A stretch of 64,000 bases of DNA from positions 23,893 to 87,892 of the forward strand of contig JAGHQL010000112.1 of NCBI GenBank assembly GCA_020080175.1. The letters are read 5' to 3'. The notes beneath the pieces were generated by a model that ran no database searches, was not told where the DNA came from, and saw only the letters and a list, made by a program, of their open reading frames with translations. Shown here in pieces: positions 1 through 53,215 of this stretch. Each line of letters starts with the position of its first letter. The stretch's first letter is position 1. The stretch is from Glutinoglossum americanum. Lineage: Eukaryota > Ascomycota > Geoglossomycetes > Geoglossales > Geoglossaceae. The translations under genes and the position numbers were made by a program.

Positions 1-1939
1 AGAGAGCGACAGGTGAAAAGATTAGAGGAGAGATCAATTGAAAGATACATCGGGTAAGTCGCATTTCATACGCCCTTTGATCTTTTTTATAAGATAGGAG
101 ATCAATTACTAATAGACGTTTGTGGTATCTCCGCAGATCCTGAGGAAACTAGTAAAGAAGTACAAGCTTATCAAGGAAAAGCGGGAGAAGATGGCAATGT
201 ACGTTGAGGATCTCGTAGAATACCTTCAGACCAACCTGACTACAACGAAGAAGCGATACACGCATGGCCAGCACCGCATTCAGCTTGCTCTGTTCTGCCA
301 GCTTGCTGGTTTCTCCGGAAACCGCCCTCAAGCGCTCCTCAACCTCCGGTACCAGGACATCATCGTAACCTTACTTCGGGACCCGAACGGCAGCCTGTAT
401 CGGATCTTAATAGAATTCACATGCGAGTTCACAAAGCAATTTCTCGGTGTAAAAGATGCGTAAGTTTTGCGCCTGCTCTCCTCCCCTCCCCGTACGCCCT
501 TTGTCTATCTTCAGTTCAAGACACTGCTCACACTGACGCTAGGAACAAATTCCCCCTTCCTGAAATCATCTTTGATCCCTCTCTCATCCTCAGTCCACAT
601 GTCTTCCTCCTGGGCCTCATCTTTGCTAACCGAGCCTTCGCGGTCCCAAATCTCACGTCTGCTGAGCAACTGAGCAGACTGGATATTCGACCTGGCTATC
701 AGCAGCTGGAATTGCTCTTAAAGTCGAGTATGCTCAACGTCCCTATCTTTCGGAAGTCAGTCAGGACAGGGTATGGGTACGAGATCTCACCACATGAGCC
801 TTTGTCATATGCGACTCTGTTGTTGCTGATGAAGGCAGTCGGTGTCATCGCTGGGTTCCTGCAGCCTACACGTCCATACTGTCTCCGCTACGGCGCTGGT
901 AATGAGTTTAATCAGAGCAGTGTGTACCATGTGTTTCCAAACCCACCCCTAGTTGAGACATGCTAATAACCCACGAACAGGTGATGTGAGTGATGCCCTC
1001 CAGAATATGATGCTGCAGCATGCAAATATCGACACTTTAATCAAGCACTACCTCCCGAGGCGGGTCACTGCTGACATCCGGGCCATTGTCTCTGGTTACG
1101 AGCCCCAGAAGGATCTGATGCGGGCCGCCTGTCAGATGACACGATGGATCGATCCCAACCACCCACAAAACCTCACGCACGAGCAGTCCCAGTCCATTGA
1201 TAATCACCACCGACTCCGCCAGCTTCTCGCACAGCGCGCCAGGTGGAACCGTCGCTTCAAGGGTGCGGCCACGAAACAGCCTGGGTATGGAAGCCTCAGT
1301 AGCGACATTGTTAATTTGAGGCAGCGATTAAGGGCTGCGCTACTTAAAAAGCTCCGAGATCAGTGGGACGTAGAGAACCCTGTAAACGAGGTCGAGTTAC
1401 AGCTCTCTGGGTTGAAGTTCAACAATAACCCAGGTATCAAAGTGCAAGTGGTCGATAAGATGCCGCTGATGCAAATGTGCTTGGTTGAGACGGTCATGAC
1501 CATGCCAGGTACGATGGTGGAGGAGGAGTTCCGTCGGTACAACGCTGCAATCGACGCCGTCGCTGCCTACTGCCACTTCCAGGAAGGCGGAGCTGTTGCC
1601 ATGCCACGTGGGAGGCCACCGACTCAGGCCAAGAGAGCTTGCCCGCAGCTGGTGGCTGAGGACGCCGAGAAGCAAGCACTCAGCGCTGCTATGTTACTGG
1701 TGTTCACGGAGGAGAGACCTACCATCTGCTTTGTATGCTTAGGAGAAGCAAGTTTACCGTTTGAGAAGCGCGTGTATTCATTTGCGAGTCCAGGAGACCT
1801 GACCAAGCACTTTAAGCGGAAACACTTGTCCAATATTAGAAGAGGAGATTGGATCGGGTGCAAGGTCTGTCGGATGTTCTTGAAGCACAAGATGCACCTT
1901 CAAAATCATGCAGCTAGGATTCACGGAACAGTTTCTTAA
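1..1939 (+). CDS. DUF3435 tyrosine recombinase with C2H2 tail (5' partial)
   Basis: This is a fungal DUF3435 protein, which has the tyrosine-recombinase fold used by Cryptons and Starship captains. Exons that join in one frame are 137-459, 543-919 and 981-1939, giving 553 codons; introns 460-542 and 920-980 have GT-AG ends, and the second has a TGCTAAT branch site. An upstream intron (54-136) is also visible, but the exon before it does not keep phase, so the 5' end is unresolved. Catalytic candidates are Arg in GNRPQ (codon 323-325), Arg in YCLRYG, His in LQHANID and Tyr in IKHYL. The C-terminus holds paired Cys/His zinc-finger motifs (CFVCLG, then HFKRKH; CKVC, then HAARIH). No internal stop is seen in the three joined exons. 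In Starships a DUF3435 protein acts in strand exchange; here no element ends are visible, so that role is inference. Confidence 0.8.
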
Positions 1940-5100: not shown

Positions 5101-5570
5101 GTATAGAATCAGTAAAGTGTACATTCAAGCAAGTTTTCTCGTGAGTCGTTCTCCGGTATAGAGATCTGAGTCTGAGACTTCTGTAGACCCTGGAGATTGA
5201 TGTTAGGTGACTTGAATATGTACGATATAGTATGAAATTCGACTCATCTAGTACATACCAGACTCTCTACTAGGACATCATCTTGTATCATATCAATGAG
5301 CTCCACCGGTTCCATTGGGGTTTTGGGGCTCTGGGCAGGTTAGCCGCTATGTCTAATACATCACATACAAAAATAACGTACGCTGAATGGGTCTGTAGGA
5401 GATTCTGATCCTGTCATGTTTGGTCGAGAAGCCTGAGAGGTCATGTTTTCCGCAGTTACCAGTAAGAAAGGTTGAAATCTCTTGTTGAGCCGTACATATC
5501 GGTCCATGGTGGGTGGGAGGAGCGGCCTTTTATGTTTTTCATTGCAAAAGCTCTGAACCTTTTGGCCCGT

Positions 5571-7060
5571 AGCTGACGTGTCCCATATGACTGCCCCTTT
5601 AACTTGCTACTCTGCTCCAGTGCCAGGGTATCTTGATCGGAGGAGATCGGAGGAAGGTAGGCTGGTAGTATCTGTCGGCCCTTGATTTGGGACGACTAAT
5701 AATAGATACTATCATCAGGGGGGCTGCATTGGGGGCGTGTGTTAGTGCATCTGGCTGGATTATACCATCTCCTTTTCGAAGATTCTTGGGCCAACTGTGA
5801 AGCTGCTACCCGCTTCCTGTATGGTGATAGGTGTTTTGATAGGGTGTATGACAAGTGTGGTGTGTGAAGTGAAACGAAATGCCATCATAGTGGGGCCTGC
5901 TACAGCTCCCGTTGTCTAAATCCCCCTGATTCCTCAATATGATACCTGGCGCGTACAGAGCTGAACTAAGGCAGATCCCTTACCAATTAGGTGTACATCA
6001 CTTATCGCACCTTGTCAAATCGCCTGGATGTCCATCAAAGACTCATCCATCCCTGTAATTCCTGAATGGCTGAGCATGCTGCCTATCGCATGAAAGGGGA
6101 AAGCGTAGAATCGGAAGGCACTGCTTCCCGCTTATCGACTACCCATACACCTTGTAGGCAGCTTGTCATCCCCTTAAGACTGCATAATCGCCTTTGGGTA
6201 TCAAAACGCTGAGCCGTAGATCAGCGTCAGGCAGCAGTCGCCATCTTGCACAGGATTTGTAGCATCCGGCTCGATGCAATGATACTTCCCACATCAGAGG
6301 TCAGAGAATCCAGTAACTGACGTGTCCCCATAATAAGTTTAGTTGGTATGAAGGGCATACTGTGCCTCACTGGCGTCCCTATCCGTATCTTCTGAAAGTG
6401 CCGTGCTTCCGCCTCCGACTGGAGAAAGGCAAGATGGCCTGTTGATAGTATCTATTGACTCCTGATTTGGGACCTCGACTTTGCTTTATGACGAAGGCCA
6501 CCAATAACCCTATCATTAGGAGGGTGTATTGAAGGGGCGTGTTAGTACAGCTGACCTGCTCGTGCATTATCTCCCTTTCGAGGATTCTTGGACCGGCCGT
6601 TAGACTGCGGCCTATAGGGGCAAGGTATTTTAATAGATACGAGAAGAGTTGTGGGTGAAGTGAAACCGAAATGCCGTTACGCTGAGGCCCGCCACGGCTC
6701 CGGTTGGGTCTAGATCCCCGAGCTCCTCTGGATTGGGGGTAGGTCCTCCATCACTCCGGCATACGTCACCAATTACGCCTCGTCAAACCGCCCTGATGCT
6801 GTCAGGGATACTCTCAGCATCCTAATACAAGACTCTATTCCTGTACCCCTGGATGGCAAAACGTGCTGCGTCATACAGTAGAGAAAAGCATAAAACAATC
6901 AGATGGCACTGCCTCCTTCTCTTTGACCACCCACACACCATTGTCAAGGCCTACAGAGGGAAGGCGGTTAAGTGTACGCCATCCATTGTACCTTGCTGGG
7001 TTGCCTTGATATTGCCGTGGTGCATCCCGCATCAGGGGTCAGAGAATCCAGCAGCTGACG
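5571..7060. repeat. Diverged tandem duplication, unit about 740 bp
   Basis: Three anchor copies of (A/G)CTGACGT(G/A)T at about 5571, 6314 and 7053 bound two units. Matching blocks occur in order, for example GATTTGGGAC, then GGGGCGTGT(G)TTAGT, then GATTCTTGG, then GTGAAGTGAAAC, then CATCAG(A/G)GGTCAGAGAATCCAG. Both units contain many stops in all frames. The origin is unknown; the clustered transitions fit RIP acting on a tandem duplication. No gene is seen in 5100-7370 apart from this. Confidence 0.65.
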
Positions 7061-28539: not shown

Positions 28540-31500
28540 ATGTCAGGCGCCGAAGCTGGACTGGTCATCGGCTTGATTTCAGGAACCATCGCTATCATCG
28601 ATGCAATCAAGAAAGTCTACGATGCCGCCAAAGATCAACAAGGGCTTCCCGCTGCTTTTCGCGAAGTAGCGCAACGACTTCCTCTCGTGCAACATGTTCT
28701 TGGCAAGGCGAAAGCCCGTGCAGAGGGTAGACAGGTAGATGATGAGGCGTCGAAGGCTGCAAAGTCCATCCTTGAGCCTTGTCAAAAAAGAGCTGAAGAT
28801 CTTGAAAAGATCTTTCAGAAGGTCATACCACAAGAAGGTGACTCGAGGCTGGATCGATATTACAAAGCGGCAAGCACATTGGGGAAAGGCGGCAAGGTGG
28901 AGACGTTGATGAATGGGATACTGAATGATATGAGCCTTTTGTCCGTGAAGTGCGGGATGGAGACAGAGGATCTTGTCAAAGAATTGAAGGAGGCTATGAA
29001 AGCGATGTCCGCCCTCGATCCGTCGGTACCTGACCACATTTTCGATAAGAAGGCAAGCTTCACAAACATCAATTCAGGCAGCGGCTTCCAAAACATCATG
29101 AATGATGTGAGGAACGAGAATTCAGGATCTGGTATTCTATTCGCGGGACCAATGGGGAGTGTGCACTTGCCCGGTAAGCCGTGACACACTGTAGCCTACT
29201 AGCAGAAATAGTTAAAAATAAAAAAGGTTCAGTGGTTAACAACTATATCCATCGTGCTCTGATCCATACGATTGAGGAGGCAGTCGTTGCCTGTCGGAAC
29301 GCTCTTTTCCTTACAGATCCAGACATCCATCGTGAATCCCTCAAAACCGATAAAGGAGACAGAGTTCCTGGTACCTGCGAATGGATCAGAAAAAACGCCG
29401 TCTACCAGTCCTGGCTAGATGGTGATATACCGCTTCTCTGGATCTCCGGGGGTCCTGGCAAGGGAAAGACAATGCTCTCCATCTTTCTCACCGAAGAGCT
29501 TGAACATATCTCGCGGCAGACAAAGAGTATAATACTACTCTTTTTCTTCTGCGTCAACCAAGACCAGAAGCGTAATACCGCAGTTGCAATCCTTAGGGGA
29601 CTGTTATATCAGATCGTCGAGAAGCGTCCCAACCTGATAAAGCGGCACGTCTTGCCGTACTTCGAAACTGCGGAAAGACGCAAGGATACAATATCGTCTC
29701 TGGGAACCCTCTGGATCATATTTCGAAAGCTGCTTCAGGATCCTGATCTCGGCACGACCTTCTGCGTGCTTGACGGCCTTGACGAGTGCGATGACGGTTC
29801 GTCACAGGAGATAATAGCGAAGCTTGTTAGCTTCTTGCAACACCCACAATCGACCGACAGAGCGCTTAGGCTGGTGATTGTTAGCCGAGAGCTCTCAGGC
29901 TTGGGAAAGTGTGCACGAGTAGAGCTTGATCCTGATAACGAAGGAAGAGTGACTAGCGATGTTAAACAGTTCATCTCCTTCAGAATCAAAGATCTCTCGA
30001 GAATACCGGGGTTTGAAGAAGAATTCAGCATTTATGTCCAAAACACCCTTCTCCAACGCGCCGATGGGACTTTCCTATGGGTCGGCTTGGTCATGAAAGA
30101 GCTGTCCGAGAAGAAGACTTGCATTGAGGTGCAAGAAACTCTGGACAAAATACCTCAAGGACTACCGGCAATCTACAGCCGAATGCTGCTCCAGATTGAG
30201 GAAAGTCGAAGATCCACCGCCGTTCAGATTTTGCATTGGGTCATGATGGCAGTTCGCCCTCTAACACTACGAGAACTGGCGGCTGCTATCAGTGTCCAAC
30301 CGCCCCGTTATCGATCGGCCGAGGAAGCCGTTTGCGATCTGATTACTCTCTGCAACCCTTTCCTCAGGGTGCATAACAACGAAGTCAGTCTTGTGCATAA
30401 GTCAGCAAGGGACTACTTACTACGCGAGGAGACTGACCGGAATCCAGTCCTGGAAGAATTCCGCATCAAGCCAGAGAAAGCACATTTGGAACTAGCACGG
30501 AAATGTCTTAGCTGCATCAGTGATACGTCTTGTTCAGAAGAGTCTCCATTATCAAACTACGCAGTGCTTCATTGGCCAGAGCACGCAAGAGATAGTTCTA
30601 TACATGCAGGGGAGCTCTTGGACCTATCGTTACCATTCTTCCAAGACAAGTCCGGTTTACGGAGAAGGTGGGAACAATCCTACATCAAGGCAAGACTGTC
30701 AGTTCCCTTTAATTTGAAGCGGCAAAATACCTTTGGTTTGAACCCGTTAACTCCATTTGATTTGTTACATGTGGCTTCCCATTTCGGAATCGTTGCATGG
30801 GTCGATATATTCGTAAAGAGAAGAAATTTCAGCTTCTTCAATCCTGCAAATAAGAAGGATAAAGAATACGGTCATATTCCACTGTCGTATGCTGCCGAGA
30901 ACGGGCACGAGGCCGTGGTCAAGCTGCTAATCGAGGCCAAAGCCGACGTCAACGCGAAGGATGAATACCGTGTGACACCATTGTCGCTGGTGGCCCAGGA
31001 AGGTCGCGGGGCTGTCGCCGACGCCAAAGCTGACGTTAACGCGAAGGATAAATACCGTGTGACACCACTGTTACTGGCGGCCCAGGTCGGGCACGAGGCT
31101 GTCGTCAAGCTGCTAATCGAGGCCAAAGCCGACGTCAACGTGAAGGATAATTATGACGGTAGGACGCCGCTGTCGTGGGCGGCCCAGAGAGGACACGAAG
31201 CCGTCGTCAAGTTGCTGATCGAGGCCAAAGCCGACGTCAATGCGAAGGATAAGAATTCCGGTACGAGGCCGCCGTCGTGGTCACCCTTTGAAAGGCGCTA
31301 TGCTGTCTTCATACTAGATAATGCCGGTAGGACACCGTTGTCGTGGGCGGCCCAGAGAGGGCACGAGGATGTCGTCAAGCTGCTGGTCAAGGCCAAAGCC
31401 GACGTCAACGTGAAGGATAAGAATTTCGGTAGGACACCGCTGTCTTGGGCGGCCTATGAAGGGCACGAGGCTGTCGTCAAGCTGCTAATCAAGGCCAAAT

Positions 31501-32615
31501 CCGACGTCAATGTGAAGGATAATGACGATCCGATGCCGATGAATGATGGTAGGACGCCGCTGTCGTGGGCGGCCCAGAAAGGGCATGAGGCTGTCGTCAA
31601 GCTGCTGATCGAGGCTGAAGCCGACGTCAACGGGAAGGATGATACTCAGGGCAGGACGCCGTTGTGGTGGGCGGCCTATGAAGGGCACGAGGCTGTCGCC
31701 AAGCTGCTAATCGACGCCGGATCCGACGTCAACGACAAGGATGATTATGATGTGACACCACTGTTGCTGGCGGCCCGAGAAGGGCATGAGGCTATCGTCA
31801 AGCTGCTGATCGACGCCAAAGCCGACGTCAAAGTGAAGGATGGTGGTAGGACGCCGCTGTCGTGGGCGGCCCAGAAAGGGCACAAGGCTGTCGCCAAGCT
31901 GCTGATCGAGGCCAAAGCTGACGTCAACGGGAAGGATGATACTCACGGCAGGACGCCGTTGTGGTGGGCGGCCTATGAAGGGCACGAGGCTGTCGCCAAG
32001 CTGCTAATCGACACCGAATCCGACGTCAACGACAAGGATGATTATGATGTGACACCGCTGCTGTGGGCGGCCGAGAAAGGGCATGAGGCTATCGTCAAGC
32101 TGCTGATCGACGCCAAAGCTGACGTCAACGCGAAGAATAAATACTGTATGACGCCACTGTTGCTGGCGGCCTGTGAAGGGCACGAGGCTGTCGTCAAGCT
32201 GCTGATCGACGCCAAAGTCAACGTGAAGGATGATGATGGTACGACGCCGCTGTCATGGGCGGCCCAGGATGGGCACGAGGCTGTCGTCAAGCTGCTGATC
32301 GACGCTAAAGCCAACGTCAACATGAAGGATGATGGTGGTACGACGCCGCTGTCGTGGGCGGCCTATGAAGGGCACGAGGCTGTCGTCAAGCTGCTAATCG
32401 AGGCCAAAGCCGACGTCAACATGAAGGATGATGATGGTACAACGCCACTGTGGTGGGCGGCCTATGAAGGGCACGAGGCTGTCGTCAAGCTGCTAATCGA
32501 AGCCAAAGCCGACGTCAACATGGAGGATGATGATGGTACAACGCCGCTGTCGTTGGCGGCCAAGAACGGGCACGATGCTACAGTCAAGTTATTACGGTCC
32601 TTCAACTCCAAATAA
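28540..32615 (+). CDS. NLR protein: SesA, sigma-like motif, NACHT, ankyrin repeats
   Basis: Exons 28540-29173 and 29233-32615 join to 1338 residues without a stop; the 59-bp intron (GTAAGC...TTCAG) keeps phase, and the second frame has no ATG before its P-loop, which supports splicing. Order: SesA-type N-terminus (about 1-130, MSGAEAGLVIGLISGTIAII), a Gly/Ser/Asn segment (about 176-211) with two NSGSG motifs resembling the sigma amyloid motif, a NACHT NTPase with Walker A GGPGKGKT (284-291) and Walker B VLDGLDECD (about 391-397), then about 18 ankyrin units from residue 757 to the end. Such proteins act in fungal heterokaryon incompatibility and innate-type cell death. Ankyrin units are unusually alike; units 2 and 5 are damaged. 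Alternative: two separate genes, if the intron is not used. Confidence 0.85.
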
Positions 32616-34353: not shown

Positions 34354-36156
34354 TTATTCTTCTATATAACGTTGTGGGCATGCTCTTGCGCCTCGTCTAT
34401 GGCCAATAGTATGGCATTTGCTACATGTAGGAGGAGTTTTCTGCGTTTGTGCTGCTTCAACAACCTCAAATTGGCTAGACTCGCGCCGTGTACTGAACTC
34501 TGGAAGCTTGGATTGCATCCCACAATGCCGAGACTCAAGACGCTGAGGCTCTAGAAGATGAATTGAAGTTCTATTACGTATAAGATGTCAATGTAAATGG
34601 AAGTCTTCAAGAAGAAGAGGCTTACCTTGGTGTATATCTAAGACATGTAAGCATAGAAGCCCATGAACTTGTATGAAGACACCTGTACAAATAGAAGATG
34701 GTAAAGGATCTGTCTTACAAAACCTCCCTTGCCGTTGCTCTTCAACCCTTCGTAAAGCTTCATGTGATACCTATCCTTGTACTGACTTATATAAGGCCTT
34801 GTCAAGCTCCAAAGATGTCCGAATATGTTGTTTTGCTTGATTTGCCTTCAATTCAGCAAGTTGGTTATTCAATGCAAGGCGTATCGACTTCCAAGCTTCA
34901 AAGAGGTCAAAAGTTGACCTTCGAAGGTATGACTTAAGAAGTGCATGGATCCCTTCAACACGAGACATAGCTGTATTCCCAAAATGAAGGTGTTGATCAA
35001 CCTATGCTGAAACAAGTTTCTTCTTATAAGAAATAAGTCATGTTTCCTTAATATAGCCAACCTGCTTGCGATTTGAAGGATATCTGTTTTCAAATTTCTC
35101 AAGACGCTTCTTATATGTCTCTTCATTTGGTAAATTTAGGATCAAGAACCAATATCTATAGAACTCCTTCCATATATCAGTATCTTCAAAAGCTGGTTGG
35201 CACTGTGCGAGGACTGCCTTATTTGCGTGCCATATACAAATAAGTGTTGCTGATGGAAAGAAATTAGAAATAGCATTTATTGCTACAAGGCATCGGTCTG
35301 TCAAAATAACAGAAGGGAAGACTCCACCGTATTGTTCGTATATAGTTTGCAACCGCTCAAGGGCCCAGATGTAGTTTCCTTCAGCCTTGCCGCTTAAAAA
35401 AGCAAAAGCAATACAAAAGGAGTGATTTGTAGCATCAATGCCAATCATATCAAGAAGTGGCATCTCATATTTATTCGTCTTATAGGTACAGTCGAGGATA
35501 AGAATCTCGGGGTACGCTCGAAGGTATACGAGGGAATCAGGATACGCAAAAAAAACAGCTGTAACATGACGATCTGACCCATATTCCATACGACTCCAGA
35601 AGCCTTTCTTCTCTAATTGGTTTGCAAGAGCATGAATTGGACTCTCACCATCTCGAGATTCACGACAAGCCTCAGCAATTCGGTTATAAATATCTTGACG
35701 TATCTCAAGGGAACCGCTTTGTCATACGATTGTCTGAATCTCCTTAGGAGCAAGTCCTGCATTTGAAAGAGATGCGATTTGCGTATTTCTAGAGAGCTTG
35801 CGTTGAATTGGGTGTGCAGATGGGTCCAGACTTGGTTCGTGATTATGAATCATATAACATTGATTGAGACGATGTTTTAAGGTCCAGCCTTCAATAGACT
35901 CTCTTGCAACAACTGAAAAGGAACAATTTGTCATACGAGTAGATGTCTTGCGTTGACGCTCTCTATCAGAGGGTGGTCGGCGACTTTGATCGCATGCAAA
36001 AAAAACTCTTAAAAAGCTATTTGACTCCCGAATTGACCTTTGTGTTATAAAAGCATAGCCTCGGGGCTTTGCATATACGTTAATTGACTCAAATAAGGCT
36101 TTGCGGAACTCAAAAAAGCCCTCAGGAGGGAGGCAATCATCTGAGAAGGTTGTCAT
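34354..36156 (-). pseudogene. MULE transposase of the inner element
   Basis: ATG at 36156 (MTTFSDDCLPPEGFFEFRKA); the frame ends with a TAA at 34354. A FAR1-like N-terminal zinc domain region is followed by a MULE DDE core: first Asp in LILDCTYKTNKY, second Asp in VILTDRCLVAI, a CxxH-type IWHANKA, and Glu in MSRVEGIHALLKSYL. The C-terminus has a zinc knuckle, CSKCHTIGHRRGARACP. Stops at about 35724 (CGA to TGA), about 35040 and 34995 (TGG to TGA by comparison with the outer copy, which keeps Trp there) and a few nearer the end inactivate it. It is closely related to the outer transposase along its whole length. Confidence 0.85.
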
Positions 36157-38588: not shown

Positions 38589-40376
38589 ATGGTGACCTTT
38601 TCAGATGATTGCCTTCCTCTCGAGGGCTTTTTTGAGTCTCGTGAAGCCTTATTCAAGTCGATTAACGCATACGCAAAGCTTCGAGGATTTGCTTTTACAA
38701 CCCAAAGGTCTACACAAATACAAAGTGGTCTCCAAAGAGTTATCTTCACATGTGACCGAAGTCGCCGATTACCTTCATCTCCAGAACGCTCGCGCTAGAG
38801 AAATACAACTACACATATGACAAGTTGTCCCTTTTCAGTCCTTACTAAAGAGTCTTGTAAAGGCTGGACTCTTAAGTACCGCTCTGGTCAAGAGTATGCA
38901 ACTCATAATCACGAACCAAGCTTACATCCGTCTGCACACCCAATCTACTGATGGCTTTCTTATACACTACAACTAGAAAGCCTCTCGAATGCTGGTCTTG
39001 CACTAAAGGAAATCCAGACACTTGTACGACAAAGCAGCTCTCTTGCTACACGTCAGGATATCTATAACCATATTGCTAATATTCGTCGAGACTCCTGTCA
39101 AGGCAAGAGTCCTATTTATGCTCTTGCAAATCAGCTTGAGCAAGAGGGCTTCTGGAGCCGTATACAGTATGGGCCAGATAGGCACGTAACAGCAGTTTTT
39201 TTTGCGCATCTCCAGTCTCTTATCTACCTCTGAACATACCCTGAAGTTCTCCTCCTCGATTGTATATATAAGACAAATAAATACAGTATGCCACTTCTTG
39301 ATATGATCGGCATCGATGCAACAAAACGTTCCTTTTGTATCGCCTTTGCATTCTTAAGTGGTGAGACCGAAGAAGATTATATATGGGCCTTCGAGTAGCT
39401 TAAGATATTATATGAACAGTGCGGTGGAATCCCGTCAATTATTTTAACAGATCGGTGTCTTGCAGCTATAAATGCAGCTTCATCTCTCTTTCCGTCAGCT
39501 ACATCTCTCTGTATCTGGCATGTAAATAAGGCAGTTCTTGCACGGTGCCAGCCAGCCTTTCAGACAACCAAGAAATGGAACAAATTTTATGGGTTTTGGT
39601 TTTCGATTCTCAATTCACCAACTCAAGAGATATATAAGGAGCGCCTTAAGGAATTTGAAGAGAAATATGCTTCAACCAACCTCGAGCAAGTTGGCTATAT
39701 TAAAGAGACGTGGCTTTTACCATTTAAGGAGAAACTGGTTGCGGCATGGGTCAATCAACAGGCTCATTTTGGTAATACGGCTACCTTCCGTGTTGAAGGA
39801 ATCCATGCGCTCCTTAAATCATACCTCCGGAGGTCGACTTTTGACTTTTTTGAAGCATGGAAGGCGATTCGACTTGCATTAAATAACCAGCTCTCTGAGC
39901 TACAGTCTAACCAGGCAAAGCAACAGATCCGTACGCCTCTTAAGCTTGATAAGATTATATATAAAGCTGTACAGGGCTGGATCTCACACGAAGCACTACG
40001 GAGGGTCGAGGAGCAGCGGCAACTGCAGTGGAAAAACCCCCCTCCATCACCAACTTGTACTGGTACTTTCACATATGTATATGGGCTTCTCTGTATACAT
40101 ATATTAACTACTCATATAGGTCAGCCACTTCTTCTCAATAACTTTCACTCACACTGACGCTTAATACAGGATAGGGCTCCAGTTCACCTTCTAGAGCCTC
40201 ATCGTATAGAGCCAAAAGTAACATCAAAAGTGATATCAAGTACGAAGCGTGAGCCTTGCCAATTTGAAGTTATTGAGGCACAGGCTATACGACAGCCTCC
40301 TACGTGTAGTGATTGTCATACTGTTGGTCATAGACGAGGTACGCGGGTGTGCCCGCAACGCTATTCTAATACATAG
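38589..40376 (+). pseudogene. MULE transposase of the outer element
   Basis: It begins MVTFSDDCLPLEGFFESREA and ends at a zinc knuckle, CSDCHTVGHRRGTRVCP, then TAG at 40374-40376. The DDE core is visible: Asp in LLLDCIYKTN, Asp in IILTDRCLAAI, Glu in FRVEGIHALLKSYL. A frame change near 38790 (PERSR then stop) and several stops (about 38950, 39230, 39398, 40155) break it. Where the inner copy has stops, this copy often keeps Trp or Arg, which confirms that those stops are mutations. Confidence 0.85.
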
Positions 40377-43429: not shown

Positions 43430-45945
43430 TCTCTGACAATATTTCTTAATGACGCCATCAAATGCATTGATCATGCCATCGTACATGCCGTTGATCCCCT
43501 TAGGAACACTGTATGTTCCAGTGAAGAGTGATTCATCTCGAATCGGAAATAACAAATGGCGTAACTCTTTAGCCAAAAGCTTTATATCTTCAAATTGCTG
43601 TGGGAACTCAGCAGTGATCGCTTTGAACCTTTTTTTGTCCATATCCCCTGTTTTATTTTGTGCTATCTGGTCGTAAGTTCCCGTATACTAGTCCTGAAGT
43701 TTGCTTGTCTTTGGTAAGTTCCTGTCGACTTCCTGGCCATAACAGATAATCACCTACAGAAAGACATGGAAGAAAGATTCTAAATCGTGTCGGTAGGTGT
43801 GCGCTTTACCTTCGAGTACCTCGATTGCCATGAATTCCATGGTACCAGTCCGGTGTCTTGCTCCGCTTGGGCCACTGTCCAACTCCTTTACCAGGTCGAG
43901 GTCAATCAGCATTCCACTCAGGTCTTCTTCCTTCTCTGTATTCGTGATGATAATGTTGTTCTTAGAAATGTCGTGATGAAGTATCTTTCCGTCTTGGTAA
44001 AGGGATCTATGGCCCTTGATGACATCACGGCATGCCTCTAGAAACTTCAGGATAGACTCGAACTCATGAATTGCCTGCCCTGGAGGGGAGACAACTAGGC
44101 AACTGAATATTCGATTATCGAAAGATCCATCGTCTGCTTTCCTTGGATACATCAAACTAGTTGTATTAGCTTCCACGATATTATATTTATTAGTATCCTC
44201 AGCACCGTAATCTTGCTCTGGTAATCTGGTTTGTGATATCTATCCGCCTGCGGCTGCTAGTTGATCTAGACCGCTTTGATTGATAGGGTTCAGCTACCTC
44301 GCCATGTCGCTTTCGTTTACGTCCTGATAACGATGACTCTAGAGTAACCTTGTCGATACCCAGACTTGTATTTCTCGACTGGGTCTGACTGATCGATCCA
44401 CTAGTAGCAGATGGGAACCATCGTGGTTTCCCAAATTGCAGTCCTTGTCGCAGATTTACAATACTATTGAGGTCTTGATAACCAAAGAGCCGCGCAACGC
44501 CCCATACACCTCTCTGTTTAGTAAGTCTCAACAGCTCTCCTTCTGCTCGCCTCTTATCTGACCGTCAGGAGAATTTGACCACGAATTCCCAATCCCCCAT
44601 ATACTGCCTCTTTGCTCAATAACAGGTAGTTCCTCGACACACAATCGCTCGTTGAAAAGCAATTGGCTTGTCTTCCAGGTAGAGTTTCTCCCCTTCAGTC
44701 CTACCCTCGCCCTTAAACATGATGTACTTGCCTGTCTCATCCTCTTTAATGTACGAGTTTAAACCTAACTTCTCATCGTTCATCATCGTGTAACCAGTCA
44801 TGACTCTGATGAATTTATCGGGGTCCTTGTGAAGATCGAATTTCTCGCCACTGTATGGTCCGGACCGGTCGAATATCCACAGTTCCACCATGGATCCACG
44901 GATAACAAAGTCGTGAAGAAACAGGCGTGTAGGCTGGATAGTAAATACTTCTCGAGCATGTTCACAGAATTTAGCAAATTCATCTGGATAGTTTTTTAAG
45001 ATGCTTTCCTTAAGCTCTCTGATGACCCGCACATCCACCCAATTATATCTTCCATTGCACTTGATGGTACCTGAAGGCACTGCGAAGAGATCAGGCTGAC
45101 GGCCACAGTCGGAACCACTTAATGACTGCCTATAAGAAGTATAGTATGCGCTGTGCCCTCCTGAAAGAAATGTTAACTGAAACCTCCAAAACCATTCTAA
45201 GAAAGCGCTTTGAGATGATGAATTTGGATAAGCCGTCCAGCAACCGTCGATTATCTGCGGGTTTGCATCTCGAACAATCTGCTCTGCAGCTAGCAACCAA
45301 GACTTCCCCTCAAAGTACTTCTTGTAGAAGCCTTCTGTGTTATTGTAGACACAGCCATTGACTTCTTAGAGGATACATTCGTTCAGCTTCTTGTGAATCT
45401 GTTCGCTACCCTGCTGTGAGCTTGAAGTAGATTTAAACGTTGTGTCGAGGACGGATTTATTAAAGATGGTAAGAGACGTTGCTCTTGGTTTAGCGACAAG
45501 AGTAAAGACAGCATTCTAGATATCTGAATCTGGTGCACCACCGATAACTTTCTCGAGTAGCGGGACAACTGATTTGACTTTGAAATCATTCGAATCGATT
45601 TTCGATACAAGGCCAAAAAGATCCTGTAAGAGGCTTCCATAGCCACTGCGTGACCGAAGGATGCGAGCTGCCGGGAGGTTTTGCAGGGCAAGGATGAAAT
45701 CAAGTATGAGGCTTTTGACATCTGCACCTGTTACCCAACGGCAGAACTGCGAAGTTTCAAGTCTTACCCACACTAGCAGGCTCTATCAAAAGTATAACCC
45801 GCTTTGATACATCTTGAAGTTCAGAAATGCTCAAGCCCATACACATTGATTTGAAGAGAAGGCGAAATTTATCCAGCTCTTCTTTGATGGGTTTGCTTGC
45901 GATGATGTCTGAATCAGAAAGATCTGAATCAGAGAGGTCTGCCAT
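43430..45945 (-). pseudogene. FunK1 fungal protein kinase pseudogene
   Basis: Start MADLSDSDLSDSD (ATG at 45945), end at about 43418. Order: an acidic N-terminus and helical region, a frame change near 45770, a long segment (45296-44616) with FDRSGPYSGEKFDLHKDPDK, a glycine-poor nucleotide lobe, then the kinase core with KILHHDISKNNIII (catalytic loop, HHD in place of HRD) and MLIDLDLVKEL (DLD for DFG), followed by ARHRTGTMEFMAIEVL. These are typical of the fungal FunK1 family (PF17667). Damage: stops after PDSDI, after NECIL, after TTCY and in KFS*RSD, plus stops around 44185-44165 that may mark an intron. The kinase role is known for the family; substrates are not. Confidence 0.75.
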
Positions 45946-46871
45946 AGCAATGGAACACGACTCAAGAGAGGTTTGTAAAGCAAGAGGTATTTAACAGGAA
46001 AAATAAAGATAGATCGCAACCGTAGACCGAGCCAGCGCTAAGATAACAGTCGGTGTATTGACAAAAGATTTAAGATGGGAACCTACCGTTTATTGATATG
46101 AAAAGTCAAGCGCCAAGCTCACGTGTCTAAAGAGCCTCAAAGCATTCTAATATAACTAAAGTGCAGTTGCGCGGACATGGTCCTCGCCTCACTACTTTCT
46201 CGGCTTCCACACAACTACAAAAATGTTATTAGAGCATTCATGTCTCGGAATTTTCCAAAATTGGGTATTCCCTGACACAATACAAATTTATAGCACCAGG
46301 TTGATGCCTGAGCATGAACCATTTCATCTAGCTACTCTCTCAAGAGCTCTTAGTATCGGGTATTACAGAGAGACCAAGACGCTGAATATTGGAGTGCTGT
46401 ATATGCGTCTTCACAGTCTTATTTGTTACTGCAGTCCTTATCATGCCGACCTGTGCCTACACACTCACCCCATGCCTGTGCTGCTAGCTTCGCCTCCGAA
46501 AATCCTTCTGATCTAATGCCTTCCTAGAAGACTCTTACATTGGCCAGTTCTGCCGCTTCACTGACACATGTTCACCTCCACGGTTCATCTGACCTATTTT
46601 GAGGCAGAGGGCGACACACCTCGCTAGATAGCGTGTGTGAAGATTGGCAGGCCATTTCTTATACCCTAGAAAACTACTAAGACATGAACCCCTGGCAAGC
46701 CAATAGACTCCGTAGAGTGAGGAGGAAAGAGATGGAAGGTACGAAATGTATTACTGCCTAGGAGGATCGCAGTAGGATTGCCTTTTCAACTCGCTACCGG
46801 CTCTGAAGTCAAGGAACATGGTCTAAGAGTCCTCTTAGCCCTTAATCTCTACTTCCTGCATAATCCACTAA
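45946..46871. other. Intergenic, no gene seen
   Basis: Short plus-strand frames (46223-46516) lack recognisable domains. It ends at the 5-bp target site ACTAA of the Gypsy element. Confidence 0.45.
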
Positions 46872-46949
46872 TGTGGTCGCGCTGCCACGCTTATGGCATG
46901 CCTCGCCTCACGACCCTTCGCTTCCTCGGCCTTCGCAAGAGCAATTACA
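46872..46949 (+). repeat. 5' LTR of the Gypsy element
   Basis: 78 bp, TG...CA ends. It differs from the 3' LTR only at a G (5') against A (3') in GCCTC(G/A)CCTC. Confidence 0.9.
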
Positions 46950-46950
46950 C

Positions 46951-46960
46951 TGGTAGCAAC
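46951..46960 (+). promoter_or_regulatory. Primer-binding site
   Basis: TGGTAGCAAC lies one base after the 5' LTR. Its first seven bases complement the 3' end expected of an initiator-methionine tRNA (GCTACCA), the usual primer for Ty3/Gypsy elements. Confidence 0.65.
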
Positions 46961-47103
46961 AGCACGTTGGGCTGTTTACGACCATAAACAGACTCAACAA
47001 CGATCGTGTCCTCAATTATACTCCTTGTTGATCCCTGCATAAGCCTAAAGCCTATTTCTATGACAAAACCATAGAGTCGGGAGCTCCTTCAGCTAGTAGT
47101 AGC

Positions 47104-47988
47104 ATGGAAACCACCCCGCCAACGGAACAACTACATGTTGAACAACCGTCCACCACGCAACTACCTCCTGCACAATCGCCTCCTACACAACCACTTCCTG
47201 CAATACTGTATAAGACACCAGAAATCTCGTTTAAGATAGAAAAACCATCACACTTTGTAGGAAAGAGATCAACGAACGAAGTACGAAACTGGCTATGGGA
47301 CATGGATCGTTATCTTGTCTTGAGCCAGGTTCCATTAGACCTTCGTACAATCTTCGCAGCCTCTTACCTAAAGGACGATGCTCAATATTGGTATCGAACG
47401 ATTGCCAGAACACAGTTTCATCAGCAAGCCGATAATTGGGAGGAGTTCAAACAGAAGTTCTATGAACGATTTCAGGAGATCAACAGTGGCCCAAAAATGA
47501 TGGATCGTTTCTTTTTGTTGACGCAACTGTCTACGAAAAGCAAATCTATAAGAGAGTATACGGAGACGTTCACCAAGCTATACTCTAACCTGAGTAACGA
47601 TATCAACGAACCAGTTGCGTTACAACGATATATTTCGGGCCTACTACTACGAACACGGATGGACGTAAAAAGAGGCAATCCAACGACGTTACAACAGGCC
47701 ATAGAACTGGCGAATATGGCTGACGATATTAACCGACATACGTTTAAGTATCAGAAGTCTCAGTCAAGTTTCTCACAGAATATAACGACTCCTACGACTT
47801 ATACGAATGGTGATCCTATGGACCTCTTAACGATGTTAATGTCAGAGATGTCTAAGAACACGATGAGGAAATTGGGCTTATGCTTCAAATGCAAAAGGAA
47901 AGGGCATCAACAGAAAGATTGTCTACAGAACAGGACAAAAAGCAAAGAAAAAGAGCAAACGGAAAACACAAGAGCCAAATCGTCATGA
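47104..47988 (+). CDS. gag: Gag of the Gypsy element
   Basis: 294 residues from METTPPTEQLHVEQ. A Pro/Gln-rich start is followed by the retrotransposon gag capsid core (NWLWDMDRYLVLSQ, AQYWYRTIAR, FYERFQEINS) and a zinc knuckle CFKCKRKGHQQKDC near the C-terminus, then a lysine-rich tail. It packages element RNA in cytoplasmic particles. The frame is intact. All three frames are open for part of the A-rich tail (47930-48100), so how gag passes to pol is unclear; pol lies in the -1 frame. Confidence 0.9.
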   Translation: METTPPTEQLHVEQPSTTQLPPAQSPPTQPLPAILYKTPEISFKIEKPSHFVGKRSTNEVRNWLWDMDRYLVLSQVPLDLRTIFAASYLKDDAQYWYRTIARTQFHQQADNWEEFKQKFYERFQEINSGPKMMDRFFLLTQLSTKSKSIREYTETFTKLYSNLSNDINEPVALQRYISGLLLRTRMDVKRGNPTTLQQAIELANMADDINRHTFKYQKSQSSFSQNITTPTTYTNGDPMDLLTMLMSEMSKNTMRKLGLCFKCKRKGHQQKDCLQNRTKSKEKEQTENTRAKSS

Positions 47989-48008
47989 GGTGAACGACGA
48001 GGCCAATC

Positions 48009-51000
48009 ATGAAGCCTCACGATATGGAGACGAACACCTCCAACGAAACTATTACGCAACCGAACAAAACGATTACGCAAAACTTAGGGAAGGGAGACAC
48101 ACTCCCACGAACACAATCAGACCACTACGATATTATTAGTGACGAACCGGAATTAGTTTCCCTAACGAGCAACAACCAGCAGCTTTTAGTCTTCAAAGGC
48201 GAGCTGCATGGCATGGGTGTCAAAGTGCTAGCAGACACCGGAGCCATGAAACGGTATACCAAACGAAGTCTAATACAACGATTAGGCTTAACGATAAAAC
48301 CGCTACCACGAACTTGTGCTGTGCAATTGCCCAACGATACACGTTTACCCGTATATGGTACGGTAGACTGTACAGTTACTATCGGAGAATTCAACGACAC
48401 CGCAACCTTTCAGGTACTAGACCTGGACCGTTATGATATTATTCTAGGAATGGACTTCTTTCAACAATACCAACCTTCTATTGACTGGGAAACATTAGGA
48501 CTTCACATAACGATGCCGACCGGCAAAGTATATAACCTTTACAGTAGTCCTTTCAACTCTGTTCAGTTACATACGATCACCGATGATGACGACGTCAACA
48601 TCGTTGGTTTTCGGAGCAGCTGTAGAGCATTAGCTCACGGAGCTGAAGGTGTTCTGTACGTAGTTACAGAAGAACCACCAGCGTTACCCGGACAGATAGC
48701 CAACGATACTGATAAGTCTACAAGGTATGAGGAGTTAGACGATATTTTGGGGCCTTTACTACAGGTGTTTCAGGAAGAGCTTCCTGAAGGAGTAGGACCA
48801 CGACGACACGTTGATCATCGTATTGATACCAGGGACGCCCGACCAATCAATCGGATGGCATACTCTCTCTCACCAGAACAGTTAAAGGAACAAAAACGAC
48901 AAATTGAGTACTTGCTGGACAAGAACTTAATACGACCTAGCCACTCGCCTTGGGGAGCACCAGTACTGTTTTCAAAGAAAAAGGACGGAAGCCTACAGAT
49001 GTGTGTGGATTATCGTGCACTCAATAGCGTTACGGTTAAGGACGGCTATCCTTTACCGAAGATACAGGAGTGCTTGGACCAGCTAGGCCACGCTACTTAT
49101 TTTACGAAGTTAGACTTCTTGTCAGGGTACTGGCAGATACGGGTTGCAGACAAGGATATACCGAAGACGGCATTCAATACAAGGGGAGGGAAGTATGAAT
49201 TCAAAGTATTACCGTTTGGTCTAATGAATGGACCAGCGACATTTCAAACGCTAATGAACGATATACTACGACCTTTCCTGAACAACTTTATTGTTGTCTA
49301 CTTGGACGATATTCTGGTTTACAGCCGTACCAGGGAAGAATACCTACAACACGTTAAACTAGTTCTTCAGAAGCTAGTAGAAAATAACTTAATAGCTAGA
49401 CGGTCTAAATGCAGCTTCCTACAACGAGAAATTGACTTCTGCGGGCACACGGTCAGCAACGGTATTATCAAAATGGACCCGACGAAGCTATCAACGATAC
49501 GAGATTGGCCAACGCCAACAATGCTACATCAACTTCGTCAGTTTCTTGGTCTCTGTACTTACTACCGACGCTTCATACGAATGTTTGGTTCAATTGCTGC
49601 CCCACTGCACGAACTTTTAAAAGTCAACGAAGAACAACGGCGACGAAAGCACCGTCCAATACACTGGGACTTAGCTTGTCAGAGAAGCTTCGAGGAGTTA
49701 AAGGAAAAACTTACAGCATCACCTGTACTACAACAACCGGACACGACACGGCCATTCACTATTGATGCTGACTCCTCTGACTTTGCTTGTGGAGTCACGT
49801 TGTCACAAGTTAATGAAAACGACAGCAAAGAACATCCAGTTGCTTTTGAGAGTAGGAAGTTCACGGAAACAGAACGACAATATCCAACACATGAAAGAGA
49901 ATTGCTTGGAATAAAGCATGCCTTACAGAGTTGGTGATGCTATATTGATAATGGTCACAAGACGATAGTACAAACAGACTACGAAGGTCTTAAGTACTTG
50001 AAAACGACAAAGAAACTGTCGAAACGGCTTGCACGATGGATTGAAGAATTTGAAGAATTTGACTTGGAAATCCAATACAAGCCCGGAAAACGGATGATAG
50101 TAGCTGATGCTATATCACGGCGCCCGGACTTTGACTTGTTAGTCTTGAAATGGGTGGAGCATATACTTGCATACCAACGAAACGGAGAACTGCCGGGTGA
50201 TCCAAATATGGATACGATTATCACGAAACAAAACCAGGAGTTTACCTTGGATGCAGACGATGCTATCCTACATCGGGAAATGCCCGAGGACGAATATGTG
50301 CCATATGTACTAATATGGGCACGAGCCGATCTTTTAGAACGATTGCATAACGAATATGGACACGGCAACGAAACTATACTTTTTGACCTTATAAGGATAA
50401 GAGGATGGTAGTCCACGATGCGTAAGGACGTTCGTCACTATGTGCGCTACTGCCCTCAGTGTCAGATTGCTGGCCGAAGTAACGAACAACAACGAACGAA
50501 GGAAATGCACCTCTCACACCAATGGGCAGGAAGGGTACAACCATTTGACCGTTGGGGTCTCGACTTAATTGGACGACTTCCAATAACACCTAACGGAAAC
50601 CAATGGATTATATCAGCAGTTGACTATGCAACGGCGTGGCCAGTTGCAAAGGCAGTGTCAAAAGCAAATACTGAAATGATTGCCAACTTCCTTCACGATG
50701 AGATATACTTACACTATAGTGCACCTAAAGAGATAATCACCGACCGGGGACCAAATCTTTGGGTACCAGCAATGGAAGCTTATGTTAGTAGGTTGAAGCT
50801 CAAACACTGGAGTACGACGCCATTTCATCCACGAACAAACGGCAAGGTTGAAAGTTTTAATGGAGTTCTCAGCCGTATGCTAACGAAATACCTAATCGGT
50901 AAATCACGAAAACTATGGGACAGGTACTTAGACCAAGCCTTGTTCGCGGCACGAATCCGAACGCACACGACAACGCGATATTCTCCCTTTTATTTAGTTT

Positions 51001-51587
51001 ATGGACGACGTCCACGTCTTACAGCTGATCAAAACGGAATAACACCTTTAACGGATGATATTCAGGGAGACCGATTACCAATATTTGAAACTGTTAGGGC
51101 TGAAGCACAACGACGTACAGAAGAACGTGCCCTGAAAAATAAAGATGTGTGGGATGATAAGGTTAAGTTACCAAACTATGCTAAAGATGACTATGTCCTA
51201 GTACGAGCAGAAAACTGAAAGAAATACGAAGGACGATGGTACGGACCGTACCGTATCCACAAGATAGCACCATTAGGTACCTACCAGCTGAAGAAACCAA
51301 ACGGACACCTTCTGGATCTCTTAATTAGTGGAGACCGTTTGCAACGGGCACGGGTTGACGGCAGAGTTACACGAGGATGGAACGTACCTGCACCAGTTGG
51401 ACGACCAAAACGACGACTCCACGGCAGTGAGAATAATCCTGACCATCTAATAGCAGCACCTATAGATCAGTTTCAGGACTTACCGGAAGACGCAAATGAA
51501 GATTCGGACGAAAACGATATTGTTAATCCAACCCACGTTGATCCTGTAGGAAACGATCAGCACGATACTGCAGAACCACAAGTATAA
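48009..51587 (+). pseudogene. pol: Pol of the Gypsy element (protease, RT, RNase H, integrase)
   Basis: One reading frame encodes, in order: aspartic protease (LADTGAMKRY), reverse transcriptase (LPFGLMNGPATFQ, then VYLDDILVYS), RNase H (FTIDADSSDFACG and TDYEGLKYL), integrase with the zinc domain (HNEYGH...CPQC), the DDE core (Asp in RWGLDLIGRL, Asp in IITDRGPNLW, Glu in TNGKVESFNG), and a GPY/F module (GRWYGPYRIHKI). Stops at 49935 (TGA for CGA), 50409 (TAG for TGG) and 51216 (TGA for TGG) interrupt it. All active-site residues remain. The frame is -1 to gag, and a TGA at 47991 lies just upstream of its first ATG. Confidence 0.93.
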
Positions 51588-51642
51588 CGATACTACGATG
51601 AACGACATATTCTCTACACGACATGATACGACACAACGATAA

Positions 51643-52256
51643 CTAAGCTAGAGCCTCCTCTAACAGATTAATACCTTCCCTGATCTTCTTAAAAGCCTCC
51701 ACCAACTTCTGCTTCTTCTGTTGTCCTTTCCCACCCAACGGATCAACAGCACGACGTTTGCCACGACTACGGCCACGTGACGGCAACGGAGATATGGATC
51801 TGGAAGAACTAGCAGAAGCAGACTCTACGGCTGGTGACAACGGAGTTGACGAAGGTGGAACGATAACCAACGGCACGACAACGGAGTCCTCCTGTGCAGC
51901 TATTGAAGCTTGCAGGGCACTCTCTGTGTTAGGAGTGACAACGACGGAGACAGAACGACCGGTGTCTACGATACAACAAAGTTAGGCAAACTCAAGACAC
52001 AGCAAGACAACCTACTCAAACTGCAAGGTTTATCCTGCCAGGCACAATTGCAGCAGCTACCAGAGCAAAGTTCTGGGTAACTAATACAAGTGTCTGGGCC
52101 AAAAACCGGCTTCCCACGAGGCCCGGCACACGAGGTGCAAGGTGGATTGTTAAGGGACCCCACTTGATAGATTTCCTTGGCAGGGCTGTACCTCTGCTTA
52201 GTGGGATCCGCCTTAGTGTTGTATGCGGAAGGAAGGGCACGAAGTACTGTAGGCAT
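51643..52256 (-). CDS. Spliced antisense gene inside the Gypsy element
   Basis: Exon 1 is 52256-52016 and exon 2 is 51965-51643; the 50-bp intron has a GTAGGT donor, CTAAC branch site and TCGTAG acceptor. The joined frame is exactly 188 codons with an ATG start and no stop, although the sense pol gene has three. The N-terminal half has a dense Cys cluster (CTSC, then CISYPELCSGSCCNCAW, then C) that could bind zinc. A Ser/Pro linker follows, then a basic segment (RGRSRGKRRAVD) that looks like a nuclear signal, and a C-terminal helix (KLVEAFKKIREGINLLEEAL). It lies wholly between the integrase end and the 3' LTR. The function is unknown; a DNA- or RNA-binding accessory protein is inference. Confidence 0.65.
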
Positions 52257-52306
52257 GGCTAGCAGTAAGAATATTGTGTACGTAGTTACGTAGAATAAAT
52301 TGAATC

Positions 52307-52320
52307 GAGGGAAGGAAGGG
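52307..52320 (+). promoter_or_regulatory. Polypurine tract of the Gypsy element
   Basis: GAGGGAAGGAAGGG immediately before the 3' LTR, the usual plus-strand DNA primer site. Confidence 0.85.
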
Positions 52321-52398
52321 TGTGGTCGCGCTGCCACGCTTATGGCATGCCTCACCTCACGACCCTTCGCTTCCTCGGCCTTCGCAAGAGCAATTACA
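52321..52398 (+). repeat. 3' LTR of the Gypsy element
   Basis: 78 bp, one base different from the 5' LTR. Confidence 0.9.
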
Positions 52399-52689
52399 CT
52401 AATGCCTCTTCTAGTACTGTATAATCCCAGTCTCTACCTTCTGACTAGAGCCCGAGACGGCAGTTGCAGGGGAACAACAGTGTCATAACTCCCACCAGTC
52501 AATGACTTAGTACATAGAACTACCACAGCCGGAAGCTCATAGCATCAGCCTCATCACCTCGTACTCGACAAAACTCTCCAGACCTCTATATTTGGCATCC
52601 ACTAATATGGCTTCGTCATGCAGTGAATGTGCAAGAACGGTAGGAGCCATTGCTGTCTGGAGGATCAGGGGATTTGCATGCTGCTAACT
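52399..52689. other. Intergenic, no gene seen
   Basis: It continues the sequence interrupted at 46871. No frame or motif is recognised. Confidence 0.45.
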
Positions 52690-53215
52690 ACTTGGCAGTA
52701 CCAATGACCTTGAGAACCTTTGCGTTAGCACCAGTACTACCGACTCTTGACAGTAACAACCTTGAGAATCTTGTGTTAGCACCAGTGCCAATGGCCCATA
52801 GAGATAACGATCTTGAGAACTCGCGTTAGCGGTACTGATGACCCCGAGAACCCTTGCGTTAGCACCAATGCTGACCACCCTTGAGGCGGTCAGTACCAGT
52901 GCTAACCGCTCATGACGGTAACGATCTTGAAAACTTGCGTTAGCACCAGTGCCAACAGCCCTTGGTGGTAATGACCTTGAACTCTCGTGTTAGCACCAGT
53001 GCCGACGGCCCATGGCGGTAACGACCTTGAAAATTAGCACCAGTGCCAACGGCCCATGGCGGTAACGACTTTGAGAACTTGCATCAGCCGACGATCCTTG
53101 AGGCGGTTAGAACTAGTGCCAACGGCCCCTGGCGGCAATAACCTTGAGAACTCTTACGTTAGCACCAGTGCCAACGATCCTTGCATATTTTGAGAGCACC
53201 AGTGCCAATGATGAA
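52690..53215. repeat. Minisatellite, unit about 50 bp
   Basis: About ten irregular units of the form GGTAACGACCTTGAGAACTT...GCGTTAGCACCAGTGCCAAC...GGCCCATGGC. Units vary in length from 40 to 60 bp. No gene. Confidence 0.8.

Follow-up and report, generated by a model that had tools for sequence, protein, structure and literature searches.

HBZ is an antisense retroviral gene of HTLV, and brtn, a gene of Boty-like elements, is said to have been described by Zhao et al. in Virology in 2011. Genes placed in antisense between pol and the 3' LTR have been described before, in plants and in the Boty element of Botrytis and Sclerotinia (passages of PMC7264820, PMC8365987, PMC4227169 and PMC5987419), and the same passages present brtn as an additional antisense gene of Boty-like Gypsy elements in Botrytis cinerea. 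The plant genes, called aORF-3R, include gene23 of Grande and the genes of RIRE2, Retand and PvRetro13. According to parts of PMC7264820, they are present in most copies of a family, the Grande protein is nuclear, and the proteins have no clear database similarity except for an SMC domain (PvRetro13) and transposase_28 (Retand). Another passage of the same article places the antisense promoter of HTLV in the 3' LTR. The word "antisense" is absent from excerpts of a survey of fungal LTR elements (PMC3248453). Here we analyzed a 64-kb window, that is, the whole stretch of DNA presented above, in which a full-length Ty3/Gypsy element carries an antisense frame of its own. Like brtn, with which it was compared by description, it is an extra antisense gene between pol and the 3' LTR of a fungal Ty3/Gypsy element. 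Unlike Boty, whose pol has a chromodomain according to part of PMC4227169, no chromodomain was found in pol of the window element. It also has the strand and the place, antisense between pol and the 3' LTR, that define the plant aORF-3R class, but its protein belongs to another named Pfam family, has a six-cysteine domain, and its intron is kept in the element. The likeness to HBZ is one of position, on the antisense strand and close to the 3' LTR of a retroelement, and no sequence relation is claimed. As judged from sequence comparison, the antisense frame is very probably a real accessory-gene component of this Gypsy lineage.

The element occupies positions 46872-52398 and has the LTRs, primer binding site, polypurine tract, target duplication, gag and PR-RT-RH-IN order of Ty3/Gypsy (Table 1). 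The ungapped LTR match is 80 nt long with one mismatch, and its final two bases lie beyond the LTRs. Pieces of pol gave Pfam matches to protease, RT, RNase H and integrase. The integrase core scored 24.1 bits, below the Pfam cut-off of 32.6, yet it clearly matches solved integrases. A chromodomain was looked for in the C-terminal piece of pol (51219-51587), where no Pfam family matched, and assignment to the chromovirus clade was rejected because no such domain was found at the C-terminus.

Table 1. Features of the window element and positions of the antisense genes of its relatives.
Feature	Position	Strand	Basis
Target site duplication CTAA, left copy	46868-46871	none	Flanking sequence; identical to 52399-52402
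5' LTR, 78 nt, TG...CA	46872-46949	+	Ungapped match to 52321-52400
Primer binding site TGGTAGCAAC	46951-46960	+	Identical 10-mer at L001 position 72
gag frame, stop to stop	47032-47988	+	Pfam Ty3_capsid, Retrotrans_gag
pol frame PR-RT-RH-IN, three internal in-frame stops	47994-51587	+	Pfam, stop count
Exon 2 of the antisense gene, stop included (Ser-rich linker, basic stretch, predicted C-terminal helix)	51643-51965	-	Sequence, structure prediction
Antisense gene intron, 50 nt, GTAGGT...CTAAC...TAG, phase 1	51966-52015	-	Sequence
Antisense gene exon 1: DUF3716 six-cysteine domain	52016-52256	-	Pfam PF12511
Polypurine tract GAGGGAAGGAAGGG	52307-52320	+	Sequence; adjoins 3' LTR
3' LTR, 78 nt	52321-52398	+	Match to 5' LTR
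Target site duplication CTAA, right copy	52399-52402	none	Flanking sequence
L001 antisense gene	after pol	antisense	Spliced model
L011 antisense gene	after pol	antisense	Spliced, rough model, 3' end unsure
L013 antisense gene	after pol	antisense	Open frame of 431 codons; first Met at about residue 50
L076 antisense gene	after pol	antisense	Open frame, 211 aa from first Met

The antisense gene sits between pol and the 3' LTR, tail to tail with pol. The first-pass annotation described a two-exon protein of 187 residues with a canonical intron and 188 codons including the stop. Re-joining the frame gave 564 nt, or 187 codons and a stop, and the coordinates were right; the positions 51965-52016 named in that annotation are the two exon bases that flank the intron. 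The Cys cluster and the basic segment that it listed are both present in the antisense sequence, and its C-terminal helix, located in exon 2, is predicted by the structure model with pLDDT block means of 93-98. Exon 1 folded alone had a pLDDT of 50.8, and its fold was unpredictable. A bacterial-type promoter scan gave no promoter and one terminator-like site, which was not above chance.

The gene had also been called intact. This is right for the antisense frame, in which start, splice sites and stop are all open, but not for pol of the same copy, which has three internal stops in 1197 codons. These stops had been set against the open antisense frame; they are present, but the contrast is uninformative and carries no weight because at this rate about 62% of 188-codon stretches would contain no stop. 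The interrupted pol is consistent with a reading in which the gene class is real and the window copy is a relic, a dead copy from which nothing is made. We regard this as a somewhat unlikely account, since every signal of the antisense gene is open and the LTRs differ at only 1 of 78 positions, which could mean a fairly recent insertion, although so short a comparison is hardly informative.

A 187-residue frame could also have arisen by chance, as an open stretch of transposon DNA with a gap that happens to resemble an intron. We shuffled positions 51588-52320 with dinucleotides preserved and searched both strands, in two runs of 3000 shuffles. A one-intron ORF of at least 187 aa appeared in 0/3000 shuffles when a branch site was required and in 0/3000 when it was not, and the longest was 184 aa. 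This argues against chance and helps, but it is not decisive because the sense strand also has long frames (e.g., 51647-51985, 112 aa) and many alternative GT-AG or GC-AG joins keep the antisense frame open, with an equal or shorter product. Stronger evidence against a chance frame comes from the protein itself. Exon 1 (80 residues, 52017-52256) matches Pfam DUF3716 (PF12511) with an E-value of 2e-6 and 28.0 bits, above the cut-off of 22. The spliced protein of 187 aa matches with an E-value of 1.2e-5 and 25.6 bits against the same cut-off. Thus, the score is modest and splicing adds nothing to it in the window, because the spliced protein scores lower than exon 1 alone.

The exon-1 domain has eight cysteines in a stretch, six of which align with those of relatives. 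Zn2Cys6 transcription factors are recognized by the spacing of their six cysteines, with a first loop of X6. The window protein is similar to these fungal factors in having six cysteines as C-X2-C...C...C-X2-C-X6-C, a linker, a basic stretch and a helix, but differs from them in its first loop, which is X13. No Zn2Cys6 (PF00172) match was listed up to an E-value of 1 for the antisense protein, and we rejected membership of that family on this ground and on the length of the first loop. DUF3716 was not found by name in the open-licence literature searched, and PF12511 is mentioned in passing, as a strain-specific Colletotrichum gene, in a passage of PMC5225507.

To find relatives, we turned to eukaryotic DNA that contaminates bacterial genome bins. 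Scanning with an RT alignment gave 80 pattern matches, 16 of which encode a relative. The closest one, L001, has 54% RT identity to the window element and is its sister with support of 98/99 in an RT tree of 17 rows, from which L008 was left out for its 16 stops. DUF3716 matches with E-values up to 1 were obtained in 11 of the 12 contaminated bins and in 7 of 14 control genomes; a match above the cut-off occurred in only one of the 12 bins (G001) and in none of the controls, and it lies on the 6.9-kb contig of L001 itself. Related Gypsy elements had been proposed as the place to look for the antisense frame, and L001 indeed has an orthologue: its DUF3716 gene is antisense and downstream of pol, the same position and orientation as in the window. 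The same primer-binding-site 10-mer, TGGTAGCAAC, is found at the left end of L001 (position 72), its proper place in both elements, and elsewhere in the window and 16 loci it occurs once only, on the minus strand inside L003. No LTR pair was visible in L001, and its right-hand boundary is putative. In the gag region of L001 (L040, 4937-5270) there is an exact tandem duplication of 167 nt, which is possibly an assembly artefact.

Six GTAAGT donors are clustered in about 800 bases at the L001 antisense gene; on the contig, GTAAGT occurs 9 times on the gene strand and 2 times on the other, and 1.7 are expected per strand. The acceptor choices allow six combinations of 147-158 aa, and only the 153-aa combination, with introns of 45-53 nt, was scored by Pfam. 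Removal of the six GTAAGT introns raised the DUF3716 score from 28 to 50.7 bits, covering model positions 1-58 of 59. The L001 model is based on these six selected introns and on the Pfam gain; an automatic spliced-ORF finder recovered the window gene but gave 125 aa for L001, not 153. The antisense proteins of the window element and L001 align beyond the Pfam domain (29/87 identical, E 3e-8, a single pair), and one L001 intron lies two codons from the window intron, both in phase 1. We regard the L001 orthologue as already refuting chance. Together with the shuffles, the DUF3716 match, the gain in score upon splicing and the protein alignment, it led us to reject the chance frame, which is left with hardly any probability. 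By phmmer, no second copy of the antisense protein was found in the window and the relative loci then collected (best other E 0.15), and viral contigs yielded no relative in any of five scans (with the pol piece, exon 1 and the alignments A1, A2 and A3).

We also searched more widely, with a scan for clustered introns and a scan for the six-cysteine pattern. Bin G001 has 4 integrase matches on 4 contigs, and all four have an antisense six-cysteine gene after pol (Table 1). The L013 gene is flanked by identical direct repeats of 181 nt, taken as LTRs, and both L011 and L013 have a chromodomain (Pfam). When the domains of the window element, L001, L011, L013 and L076 are aligned, all five share six invariant cysteines. 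No DUF3716 match up to an E-value of 10 was obtained with Pfam for the antisense proteins of L011, L013 and L076, and the comparison of the DUF3716 pair with the L013 and L076 profiles by hhalign was not significant (E 0.049 and 0.28). The layout of these three and of the DUF3716 pair is alike; a shared ancestry is conjecture.

A copy of the L013 family, L108, was found in bin G012, with 95-98% identity by region between the LTRs. Most of the length of its antisense frame is kept; one cysteine of the six is altered, and a stop lies close to the C-terminus. Three other integrase places in G012 have many stops. G012 (Deltaproteobacteria CPC1) is a bacterial bin with much fungal DNA. The fungal origin of the G012 contigs is well supported by sequence matches, and we infer the same origin for the G001 contigs; it is firmer for G012 because Fungal_trans matches number 25 there and 0 in G001.

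The six-cysteine motif scan covered 57 loci (51 distinct, part of the listed integrase places), 47 of which had an integrase match. The motif was uninterrupted and antisense in 3 of the 47 (window, L013 and L076) and downstream on the sense side in 2 (L007 and L099), and the 391,712 strand-bases that precede the integrase ends contained it once. Of the 41 loci that belong neither to the window nor to G001 or G012, none had it; 28 of these 41 offered at least 600 bases to scan. The scan is blind to motifs split by introns (it missed L001 and L011) and needs all six cysteines (it missed L108). Thus, the absence in these 41 loci means little.

These comparisons bear on whether the element needs the gene at all. 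A host DUF3716 gene might have been captured by chance by the element or its ancestor and carried as a passenger without benefit. The Pfam entry for DUF3716 says no more than that its function is unknown, and its role in the element is putative; moreover, the single copy pair compared (L013 and L108, of another family) gave no significant constraint from its substitutions (antisense frame, P 0.22; pol, P 0.27). However, the place and orientation of the gene are common to two elements with 54% RT identity, and similar six-cysteine antisense genes occur in three other families (L011, L013 and L076). This weakens the idea of a passenger because a gene of no use to the element should have decayed in such a time, and we consider it unlikely. 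Selection is argued here only from the protein conservation between the window element and L001 because the L013/L108 result is not separable from neutral decay. Between L013 and L108, G>A dominates pol (56, against 14 C>T), C>T dominates inside the antisense ORF (25, against 9 G>A), and the pattern switches back just upstream of the first ATG of the antisense ORF (G>A 13, C>T 1). In the comparison of L013 5469-6617 with L108, the best segment was 5544-6617, and 0/300 permutations were as strong, a pattern noticed post hoc. The plain reading is strand-patchy deamination, yet the edges fall near the ends of the ORF.

The intron of an antisense gene disappears when the mRNA of that gene serves as the template, whereas a copy made from the sense genomic RNA retains it. 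The first-pass annotation had proposed inheritance through the sense transcript, and the proposal gains support from the intron-bearing orthologue of L001, whose best reading is obtained once six introns are taken out. Copying from the mRNA of the gene itself would have eliminated any intron; therefore, introns in two distant relatives fit inheritance through sense RNA. We propose that the antisense gene is read from a promoter in or near the 3' LTR and that its transcript is spliced once to encode the 187-aa protein. In this protein, the DUF3716 domain would be followed by the Ser-rich linker, the basic stretch and the predicted C-terminal helix; the six-cysteine domain probably binds zinc, and the basic stretch may send the protein to the nucleus. 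New copies would be made from sense genomic RNA, in which the antisense splice signals are unreadable, so that the intron would survive each round. Once in the nucleus, the protein would most likely target the transcription, the RNA or the integration complex of its own element. A role as a nuclear regulator, perhaps of the zinc-cluster type, is for us an evenly balanced suggestion. The proposal as a whole, a real antisense gene that is spliced once, kept via sense RNA and active in the nucleus on the element, seems to us reasonably likely.

Overlapping antisense RNA could also damp the element via double-stranded RNA, and it might be that this RNA, not the protein, is what matters, with convergent transcripts tuning the silencing of the element. 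The pol and antisense genes run towards each other, their stop codons 55 bases apart, and a passage of PMC7264820 discusses a regulatory role of antisense RNA in other retroelements. An RNA effect needs neither the protein conservation between the window element and L001 (E 3e-8) nor six invariant cysteines in five antisense proteins. Thus, an effect of RNA alone is quite unlikely in our view, and a protein acting on the element is preferred.

The link to DUF3716 and multiple antisense introns were not found in the open-licence literature searched. The proteins of antisense retrotransposon genes have mostly lacked a family identity, an intron history and relatives. The present comparison supplies these for the class and suggests a role for DUF3716. 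It also suggests that annotated DUF3716 genes in fungal genomes may partly be transposon genes. Antisense genes with several introns lend themselves to testing which of the two RNA strands is the template in retrotransposition. More tentatively, and with somewhat less than even confidence, the six-cysteine antisense gene, often with spliceosomal introns, may be an old standard third gene of fungal Gypsy elements with or without a chromodomain; DUF3716 would be one branch of it, and the Pfam family would partly consist of retrotransposon regulators. If so, this third gene would be comparable to the extra genes of retroviruses, and six introns in one antisense gene would record inheritance through sense RNA alone.

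Other features were observed in the window. A degenerate tandem array of units of about 50 nt (52720-53160) lies directly outside the 3' LTR, and a piece of a fungal protein kinase (Pkinase_fungal, 44616-45365, minus strand, E 2e-43) lies upstream of the 5' LTR of the element. Positions 953-1936 (plus strand) match the C-terminal half of the DUF3435 model (E 1e-43), which we take to be the family of fungal Starship captain recombinases. Two MULE transposase pieces in opposite orientation (35038-35721, minus strand; 39399-40154, plus strand) flank a long low-complexity repeat region, and the second is slightly under the Pfam cut-off (26.6 vs 27.6 bits). Finally, positions 29178-32612 (plus strand) encode an NLR-like fungal protein in which a NACHT-type NTPase is combined with 15 Pfam ankyrin stretches.
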